Virus record (IMG/VR): IMGVR_UViG_3300037584_000249
Location: 1 to 28,815 of that record
DNA from: a virus
Direction: 5' to 3' (one strand)
DNA: 28,815 nucleotides
The notes below the pieces were generated by a model. That model ran no database searches, was not told the origin of the DNA, and worked only from the letters and a program-made list of their open reading frames with translations. Made by a program: the position numbers and the translations under genes. How positions within the stretch are numbered: the first letter of the stretch is position 1; every line of letters starts with the position of its first letter. Shown piece after piece: positions 18,264-21,942 of this stretch.

Positions 18264-19693
18264 TGATTATTATACCAGCTAACACTATTTCTGGTGGTTA
18301 TGAAGTTGCTAACTCATTAAGGTTTAATAGAGGGAGTAGTGATTATTTATCAAGCACATTTGGAAGTACAGGAAATAGAAAAACATTTACATTATCTTTT
18401 TGGATTAAAAGAGCATCAATAGGTTCAGATGAAAGAATTATTGAAGCTGACACAGGAACAGATGGTAATAATGTTAGTGCTATTGAATTTGATACAGTTT
18501 CAGGAAGTAATAGAATAAGAGTTATTTTTTATAATTCTCCAACAGTAAATTTAAATTTAAAAACTAATGCTCTTTTTTCTGATTTAAGTGCTTGGTATCA
18601 TATAGTTCTTGCAATAGATACTACACAAGCCACAGCATCAAATAGAGCAAAATTTTATGTTAATGGAACACAAGTTACATCATTTGAAACAGCTACATAT
18701 CCATCACAAAATTTAGATACAGATTGGAATTTAAGTGGAAACAATATTAGAATAGGAAGAAGAATTGATAGTTCTCCAGAATATTATAGTGGCTATATGT
18801 CAGAAGTAATACTTGTTGACGGACAAGCACTTACCCCAACATCATTTGGAGAATTTGACGAAGACACAAACATCTGGAAACCCATTGATGTATCTGGTTT
18901 AACCTTTGGCACAAATGGATTCTATTTAGACTTTGAAAACTCTAGTAGTCTAGGTGCAGATGTATCTGGAAATGGAAATAACTTTACTGTAAATAACTTA
19001 ACTAGCATAGATCAATCTACTGATACTTGTACTAATAATTTTGCAACATTAAATCCTTTAGCATCTGTCAATGATGCACCAAATTTTTCTGATGGTAATT
19101 TAACAATAGATATATCTAATGCTGGTAAATTTGGAGCAGAATCTACTATAGGAGTTTCACAAGGTAAATGGTATGCAGAATTTAAACTTGTTGCTTCAAG
19201 TGATAATGATATGGCAGTTGGTGTAAATTCAGATAAAGATTCAGCAGTAAATGATACTCCTTGTGGTTTTGGTTCAAATAGTATTGGATACAGAGAAACA
19301 GGAACATTAGCAGTAAATGGTAGTGACGATATATCTTATGGAAATAGTTATACTGTTAATGACATAGTTGGAATAGCTTTAGATTTAGATAACAATAAAA
19401 TATATTTTTCTAAAAATGGAACATGGCAAAATAGTGGAGACCCTACAAGTGGTGCTACAGGAACAGGTGCAAAATCATTAACTGCTTCAAGTTCAACTGA
19501 ATTAGGTGCATATTTTTTTAATCCATCTTGTCATTCAGGTAGTCAAAATGGAGATTGGTCGGCAAACTTTGGCTCTCCACCTTATGCAATCTCATCAGGA
19601 AATAGTGATGGTAATGGCTATGGAAACTTTGAATATGCAGTACCTAGTGGATATTATGCACTTAATTCTAAAAACTTAGCGGAGTATGGATAA
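18263..19693 (+). CDS. Adhesin-like virion protein with LamG and SPRY domains
   Basis: 476 residues. Residues about 15-200 are a LamG/concanavalin-like jellyroll (NRKTFTLSFWIKRA, LSAWYHIVLAIDTTQA, RAKFYVNGTQVTS). Residues about 300-450 match the SPRY pattern (SQGKWYAEFKLVASSDNDM, NDIVGIALDLDNNKIYFSKN, GTWQNSGDP). Such lectin-like folds bind sugars or surface proteins. Context with three other fibre genes points to a receptor-binding adhesin. Two separate beta domains on one chain could allow two binding surfaces. Confidence 0.85.
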   Translation: MIIIPANTISGGYEVANSLRFNRGSSDYLSSTFGSTGNRKTFTLSFWIKRASIGSDERIIEADTGTDGNNVSAIEFDTVSGSNRIRVIFYNSPTVNLNLKTNALFSDLSAWYHIVLAIDTTQATASNRAKFYVNGTQVTSFETATYPSQNLDTDWNLSGNNIRIGRRIDSSPEYYSGYMSEVILVDGQALTPTSFGEFDEDTNIWKPIDVSGLTFGTNGFYLDFENSSSLGADVSGNGNNFTVNNLTSIDQSTDTCTNNFATLNPLASVNDAPNFSDGNLTIDISNAGKFGAESTIGVSQGKWYAEFKLVASSDNDMAVGVNSDKDSAVNDTPCGFGSNSIGYRETGTLAVNGSDDISYGNSYTVNDIVGIALDLDNNKIYFSKNGTWQNSGDPTSGATGTGAKSLTASSSTELGAYFFNPSCHSGSQNGDWSANFGSPPYAISSGNSDGNGYGNFEYAVPSGYYALNSKNLAEYG

Positions 19694-21102
19694 TGGCTTA
19701 TACAACAATAGATAAACCAACAGATTATTTTAATACTAAACTTTATACAGGTACAGGTGCAACTCAATCTATTACAGGAGTTGGGTTTCAACCAGATTGG
19801 GTTTGGTTAAAAAATAGAACAGGTGCTTATGACCATAAGTTATTTGATGTTATTAGACCAAGTAACAAATTCTTATCTTCAAATTTAACTAATGCAGAAG
19901 CAACTACAAGTAATTTTAGTAGTATAGATTCAGATGGTTTTACAGTTACTAATAATGATGGTGCTTATAATTTATCTGGTAATAATTACGCATCATGGAA
20001 TTGGTTAGCTGGTGGCACAGCACCAGCCATAACATACACAGTTAAAGTAGTTTCAGATGGTGGAAACAAATATAGATTTAATGACTTTGGAACAAGTGCT
20101 GTTACTTTAGATTTACAAGAGGGTGGTACATATACATTCGACCAATCAGATAGTTCTAACTCTGGACACCCATTAAGATTTTCTACAACATCAAACGGAA
20201 CTCATGGTGGTGGAAGCGAATATACAACAGGAGTTACAACAGTAGGAACACCAGGAAGTTCTGGTGCAAAAACTATAATTACAGTTGGAAGTGGTGTAGC
20301 AACTTTATATTATTATTGCACACAACACTCTGGCATGGGTGGACAAGCAAATACTAACTCATTATTTGGCTCATCTAATTTTTCAGGTAGTATTCAATCA
20401 ACTGTATCTGCTAACACTACTGCTGGATTTAGTATTGTTAAATATACAGGTAATGGTGCAAGTAATGATACAGCAACCATAGGTCATGGGTTAGGAGTTG
20501 CTTCAAATATGATTATGGTTAAATGTCTTAATGCAACAGGTGGTTGGCAAACATCTAGCACATCTTTAGGTTGGAATAATGTACTTCAATTAAATCAAAC
20601 TTATGCACAAGCTAGTGGAACTTATGCTTTTGGTCAAAGTGGTGTTACTCCTACCTCAACAGTATTTACAGTTTCAGCAACAAGTGGTGATAACCATACT
20701 AATACTAATAATAATAATTATATAGCCTACTGCTTCGCAGAGAAAAAAGGCTACTCTAAGTTTGGCTCATACACAGGGAATGGTAATAGTGATGGAACAT
20801 TTGTTTATACAGGTTTTAAACCAGCTTGGGTAATGGTTAAAAATACAACAGACGCTGGATATAATTGGGTTATATATGATAATAAAAGAGTTGGATTTAA
20901 CCCAGATAATGACACATTAAATGCAAATGAATCTAGAGCAGAACAAACAACAGGCTTTGGACACATAGATATAGTTTCAAATGGATTTAAAATTAGAGCA
21001 TCTACTAATGATACTAATAGAAGTGGAAATGTATTTATCTACATGGCGTTTGCCAAGAATCCATTTGTAACAAGCACAGGAATCCCAACAACAGCGAGGT
21101 AA
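19693..21102 (+). CDS. Tail fibre-like protein with inserted cupredoxin-like domain
   Basis: 469 residues. Flanking parts (residues 1-108 and 230-469) have YTGTGATQSITGVGFQPDWV, VWLKNRTGAYDH and FVYTGFKPAWVMVKNTT, a repeated 'GF.P.wv..Kn' beta unit that I recall from marine phage fibre proteins (DUF7483-like). Between them, residues about 112-218 form a beta domain with SGHPLRFST (His159) and LYYYCTQHSGMGG (Cys209, His212, Met215). The order H...C-x2-H-x2-M is that of type 1 copper sites in cupredoxins. Copper binding is inferred, not shown. The gene overlaps the LamG/SPRY gene by one base. Confidence 0.8.
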   Translation: MAYTTIDKPTDYFNTKLYTGTGATQSITGVGFQPDWVWLKNRTGAYDHKLFDVIRPSNKFLSSNLTNAEATTSNFSSIDSDGFTVTNNDGAYNLSGNNYASWNWLAGGTAPAITYTVKVVSDGGNKYRFNDFGTSAVTLDLQEGGTYTFDQSDSSNSGHPLRFSTTSNGTHGGGSEYTTGVTTVGTPGSSGAKTIITVGSGVATLYYYCTQHSGMGGQANTNSLFGSSNFSGSIQSTVSANTTAGFSIVKYTGNGASNDTATIGHGLGVASNMIMVKCLNATGGWQTSSTSLGWNNVLQLNQTYAQASGTYAFGQSGVTPTSTVFTVSATSGDNHTNTNNNNYIAYCFAEKKGYSKFGSYTGNGNSDGTFVYTGFKPAWVMVKNTTDAGYNWVIYDNKRVGFNPDNDTLNANESRAEQTTGFGHIDIVSNGFKIRASTNDTNRSGNVFIYMAFAKNPFVTSTGIPTTAR

Positions 21103-21759: not shown

Positions 21760-21942
21760 ATGGTAAAAGTAGCATCAATATCAGGAATTATAAAAGGTCT
21801 TAAACCTAGACAACAAAAGACTATGAAAGCACACGCAAGACACCATAGTCTAAAGCATATGCGATCTATGGCTAGAGCATTAAAAAAAGGTGCTACTTTT
21901 TCTTCTGCACATACTAAAGCTATGAGGAGTGTTGGAAAATGA
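21760..21942 (+). CDS. Small basic helical protein, 60 aa
   Basis: Begins MVKVASISGIIKGLKPRQQK, with HARHHSLKHMRSMARALKKG in the middle. A His/Lys/Arg-rich two-helix protein. From memory, similar small proteins with 'LKPRQ...M..H..HHs.KHM..M...m..G..F..AH..AM' occur in marine phages. Nucleic-acid binding is plausible by charge. It overlaps the next gene by four bases (ATGA). Confidence 0.7.
   Translation: MVKVASISGIIKGLKPRQQKTMKAHARHHSLKHMRSMARALKKGATFSSAHTKAMRSVGK

Follow-up and report, generated by a model that had tools for sequence, protein, structure and literature searches.

A 469-residue tail-fiber-like protein of the DUF7483 family (PF24299) contains an inserted domain that is almost certainly a cupredoxin in fold and that is, by our prediction, highly likely to carry a type 1-like copper site. 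The gene lies at 19693..21102 on the plus strand of the window, by which we mean the whole 28,815-nucleotide stretch of viral DNA that was analyzed, and the inserted domain covers residues ~109-226 (20017..20370, plus strand). As an explanation of the whole, we consider it probable that the insert is a true cupredoxin with a full set of type 1 ligands, which may act as a copper-dependent module on the fiber surface.

The fiber protein and its insertion site

In the 28.8-kb virus record, the fiber gene falls within the tail region. Since this virus shares 94-96% identity in its terminase with Pelagibacter phages HTVC202P and HTVC111P, and 77% in its J-like tail protein with HTVC202P, the host is probably Pelagibacter. 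The gene upstream of the fiber gene encodes LamG and SPRY domains, and the gene downstream encodes an M15 peptidase that is also present in HTVC202P, two genes downstream of the fiber gene there. Beyond the M15 peptidase in the window is an open reading frame of 60 residues (21760-21942) that is very basic and rich in His and Lys.

The 469-residue protein scores 386.4 bits against PF24299 in two stretches (gathering cut-off 27), is assigned to the tail fiber family phrog_24898, and was modeled by AlphaFold with a pLDDT of 86.7 and a pTM of 0.88. Self-comparison resolves its fiber portion into three repeats, with significant scores for repeats 1 and 3 (z 13.4) and repeats 2 and 3 (z 5.3), and a z of 3.6 for repeats 1 and 2. 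Repeat 1 comprises residues 1-108 (19693..20016, plus strand) and aligns to insert-free pelagiphage fibers, while repeats 2 and 3 comprise residues 227-469 (20371..21099, plus strand), and the PF24299 match in this part pairs residues 226-457 with profile positions 108-330. The same self-comparison found no resemblance of the insert to repeats 1 and 3, the two that were compared with it. A fold search of the PDB with the full fiber model gave the DUF7483 repeats no convincing counterpart, with no match reaching an E of 0.001.

The fibers of pelagiphages HTVC031P, HTVC202P, and HTVC204P are the same DUF7483 protein with the same flanks and lack the cupredoxin insert. Aligned against them, the window's fiber and related viral proteins have ~118 extra residues (109-226), and in the three pelagiphage proteins the sequence runs on without a break from NWKA-NGA into GSANTDGSI. 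The initial annotation had described a separate beta domain at residues 112-218, inserted between two halves of a repeated fiber fold. The separate beta domain stands, its bounds are better placed at ~109-226 from the insert-free relatives, and its position was nearly right, as the insert falls between the first and second of three repeats. A survey of the insertion site in other fibers, which the annotation had proposed, covered these three phages and 73 DUF7483 fibers found independently with the C-terminal part as seed. The site is empty in all of them; the insert occurs in 0 of the 73, and the gap there is always 3-8 residues. We looked for different cassettes at the same site and found none in the 73 fibers. 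Among the fibers seen, the site is therefore either empty or occupied by the cupredoxin domain, and computation shows the insert to be a cassette placed between repeats 1 and 2 of a DUF7483 fiber.

Predicted fold and proposed ligands of the inserted domain

When the insert alone was modeled with 28 viral homologs, AlphaFold gave a pLDDT of 82.8 and predicted 9 strands, in line with the 7-8 or more of a Greek-key beta-sandwich. The top 50 PDB matches to this model are all cupredoxin-fold copper proteins (probability 0.97-1.00, E from 7e-4); two-domain laccases lead, and AcoP, rusticyanin, and other multicopper oxidases are within the 50. The full-length model also matches rusticyanin and two-domain laccases (probability ~0.9-1) over 129-165 aligned columns, none of these matches reaching an E of 0.001. 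Foldseek TM-scores of the insert are moderate at ~0.5, perhaps in part because of the long loop that spans residues ~165-192. An identity as a DIPSY adhesin (E 0.006) was rejected, the score lying under its cut-off and the fold offering no support.

The four candidate ligands read as they had been annotated, His159 within GHPLRFST and Cys209, His212, and Met215 within YYYCTQHSGMGG. In the full-length AlphaFold model, predicted strands 161-164, 205-209, and 216-222 flank these residues in the way expected of a type 1 site. The proposed first copper ligand, His159 (20167..20169, plus strand), stands directly before strand 161-164; Cys209 (20317..20319, plus strand), the proposed thiolate ligand, ends the penultimate strand 205-209; and the proposed second His ligand, His212 (20326..20328, plus strand), and the proposed axial ligand, Met215 (20335..20337, plus strand), lie in the loop before the last strand, 216-222, with Met215 directly preceding it. 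The fold prediction and cupredoxin search that the annotation had called for thus gave a predicted cupredoxin with the ligand residues at the expected strand ends. A disulfide at Cys209 was considered and discarded, because the domain has only one Cys.

These residues do not vary freely among relatives. In 76 close viral domains, the two His and the Cys are each present in 76/76 and Met in 75/76, the one gap being a copy cut before Met, so that 75 keep the full set. All four are found in every one of 86 phage and genome-contig domains. In a broader set of 66 members with a mean column identity of 30%, the four ligand columns outrank all others in conservation; Met215 is present in all 66, and His159, Cys209, and His212 in 65 each, so that the complete combination occurs in 65/66. 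The sole exception is the domain of cyanophage PSS2, which has lost His, Cys, and His jointly. When all copies are counted, 183 of 192 keep the four ligands. A contig end truncates one of the remaining nine, and the other eight, namely that of PSS2 and defective second copies from T4-like cyanophages, score 0-1 ligand. The search seeds could have biased these counts toward the Cys-His-Met motif, though His159 is present in no seed, and six domains without the seed motif still show C-x2-H-x2-M.

The PSS2 carrier (L171:3007-3333) is a nearly single-domain protein of ~112 residues that retains the fold signature and Met. The second copies in structural proteins of T4-like cyanophages (L172, L175, L176, L177, L085) are split or degenerate with an incomplete ligand set; the one in S-CAM4 retains one His and one Cys, in separate pieces.

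A coincidental arrangement of these residues in a beta domain with no metal would be compatible with a site that is here only predicted, yet C-x2-H-x2-M occurs just once in 183,721 residues of other open reading frames of at least 150 residues at the fetched loci, the ligands are the most conserved columns, and the predicted fold is that of a cupredoxin. We regard such a coincidence as extremely improbable. Alternatively, copper or another soft metal might serve folding only, stiffening a spare Ig-like decoration domain. Other Ig-like modules are known to decorate phage proteins, and some cyanophage second copies persist despite ligand loss. In many lineages, however, packing could replace such a metal, and the four ligands are nonetheless kept in nearly all copies, so we consider a purely structural metal unlikely. 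We know of no reading other than a type 1-like copper site that joins the fold, the ligand order, the strand positions, and the joint loss, and judging from the sequences and the model, the insert very likely binds copper.

Searches with the single sequence of the window domain found no match to it in Pfam, NCBIfam, or the PDB, and we therefore turned to profile and fold searches. By itself, the domain gives no match to the plastocyanin/azurin family (PF00127, Copper-bind). Three relatives scanned singly score 19.3-20.4 bits against its gathering cut-off of 21.2, and weak PF00127 matches occur in 16 of the 66 profile members, the best at 2.7e-5. A search of the PDB with the 66-member profile (A2) ranks plastocyanins first with the ligands aligned, at an E of 0.026 that is not significant singly. 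HHalign of this profile against PF00127 proteins from marine genomes gives a probability of 97.5% (E 5e-12), with His, Cys, His, and Met in register. The annotated reading of His...Cys-x2-His-x2-Met as the ligand order of type 1 copper proteins is borne out by this register with plastocyanin and by the near invariance of the residues. Matches of the domain to antibodies reflect common YYC residues and were dismissed as homologs.

Three marine bacterial proteins (L265, L268, and L270) score above the PF00127 cut-off and carry HPF...YYYxC-x2-H, having the HPF...YYYxCSxH features in common with the insert family; they may bridge the insert family and the classical cupredoxins. The fiber of P-SSM2 (L168:27353-27670) is of the same HPF...YYYxC-x2-H type.

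Selection, distribution, and role

Across 23 insert-bearing fibers, the domain has a median amino acid identity of 84%, against 47% for either flank; selecting the loci by their similarity to the domain inflates the first figure, which should be read as an upper estimate. Differences at four-fold sites amount to 0.47 in the domain and to 0.54 and 0.53 in the flanks. Recent spread was rejected as the source of the conservation, since the four-fold sites of the domain differ nearly as much as those of the fiber, and from these sequence comparisons the domain appears to be kept constant by selection on the protein. Such conservation amid a changing fiber argues for a general task and against recognition of a strain-specific receptor.

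The domain is also found in tail-fiber and structural proteins of cyanophages and pelagiphages, and marine bacteria and archaea likewise have proteins with it. Synechococcus phage S-TIM5 and Pelagibacter phage EXVC032P Baldr are examples of cultured phages that carry it. Among carriers on genome contigs, 27 have a lipoprotein-like signal, and several cellular carriers have cadherin-like or collagen repeats. T7-type fibers (PF03906) on Pelagibacteraceae contigs carry it as well, and those contigs may be viral. In a tree of 93 domains, which is weakly resolved and has too few columns for rooting or for the direction between virus and cell, the architecture labels need at least 21 changes and the DUF7483 carriers only 3. 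By this measure the domain would be a mobile module with few entries into the DUF7483 fiber.

Several individual carriers deserve mention. The T4-like baseplate wedge protein gp7 of P-HM1 (L169:2947-3252) contains the domain with a loop one residue longer, C-x2-H-x3-M. An open reading frame of 2543 residues on a contig of Prochlorococcus MIT 9201 (L092:3998-4318) has a copy that falls within the viral DUF7483 clade, closest to that of L062, and is either a phage-derived gene or part of a viral contig. SAR86 encodes two large adjacent proteins with one copy each (L163:627-4357), and the one neighboring gene scanned there gave no hint of function. Fold matches include A0A481YVH3 and A0A481Z6J5, which are named 'Beta-sandwich proteins' and come from metagenomic giant viruses resembling marseilleviruses and pithoviruses.

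That surface lipoproteins share the domain speaks for binding or chemistry at the surface. We tentatively take generic copper-dependent surface binding to be the most likely role. The target would be generic rather than strain-specific for two reasons: the insert lacks the diversification of the fiber repeats, and the domain recurs both in lipoproteins of the cell surface and in numerous further proteins of virions. Given the very tight copper binding of type 1 sites, we suppose that the domain would be produced metal-free inside the host cell and loaded with one copper after release. Copper would then lock the loop and yield a redox-capable site on the fiber surface, and the copper-dependent module would dock on a conserved component that many marine cells have on their surface. 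A further reading, in which blue-copper domains serve marine phages as redox or copper-presenting virion modules that help recognize or breach the copper-handling surfaces of abundant ocean bacteria, and were taken from or are shared with host surface lipoproteins, seems to us rather doubtful.

A redox module, in which copper would transfer electrons or break down reactive oxygen, either on the cell surface or near the virion, would suit the nearest solved folds, those of electron carriers and multicopper oxidases. We saw no gene for a binding or redox partner, however, and no trinuclear site, and a lone cupredoxin has no turnover by itself, which makes this role improbable. The neighbors of three lipoprotein genes likewise show no copper theme. 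It is also conceivable that copper presented on the fiber makes the metal-uptake machinery of the host surface grip the virion. Metal-bearing fiber tips have a precedent, in that tail fibers of marine phages with HxH motifs bear iron, for which an iron Trojan horse hypothesis has been proposed (PMC11705849). The invariant ligands and a role that is apparently not strain-specific would fit a copper counterpart. Against it, type 1 copper is buried and tightly held, and the domain occurs in cell lipoproteins and a baseplate wedge protein, which have no need of such a lure; we think a copper Trojan horse quite unlikely. Generic surface binding remains our preferred role. Few viruses are as abundant as Pelagibacter phages and cyanophages, and little is known of what their fibers bind; the recurrence of an invariant predicted copper site in virion proteins and in marine cell-surface lipoproteins suggests that these have a chemistry or a target in common.

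Comparison with known metal proteins

The insert shares with the plastocyanin/azurin family (PF00127) the cupredoxin fold, the ligand order His...Cys..His..Met, and the profile match with ligands in register. It differs in its shorter ligand loop (C-x2-H-x2-M, versus C-x2-H-x4-M in plastocyanin), in having Pro where plastocyanin and azurin have Asn after the first His, and in its longer loop at 165-192. It is also part of a virion fiber, whereas the members of that family are soluble electron carriers. The best structural matches, which are the Acidithiobacillus cupredoxins rusticyanin and AcoP and the two-domain laccases, are only 10-21% identical to it. Laccases add a trinuclear copper site that the insert lacks; its only His are at 159, 171, and 212, and it has neither the HxH pairs nor the HCH motif of multicopper oxidases and laccases.

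We found no earlier description of a cupredoxin in a phage fiber in the full-text papers searched, which include few subscription papers, so this absence is no proof. The nearest counterparts among phages are T4 gp37 and the HxH fibers of marine phages, which resemble the insert in placing a metal site in a phage fiber (PMC11705849). Theirs is octahedral iron held in trimeric fibers, whereas the insert is a cupredoxin, and the 469-residue protein contains no HxH motif of the kind that marks iron-binding tail fibers. If the prediction is true, copper would join the iron-centered debate on viruses as metal ligands in the sea. The HxH iron fibers are a functional precedent for metal in a fiber, with a site of a different kind.
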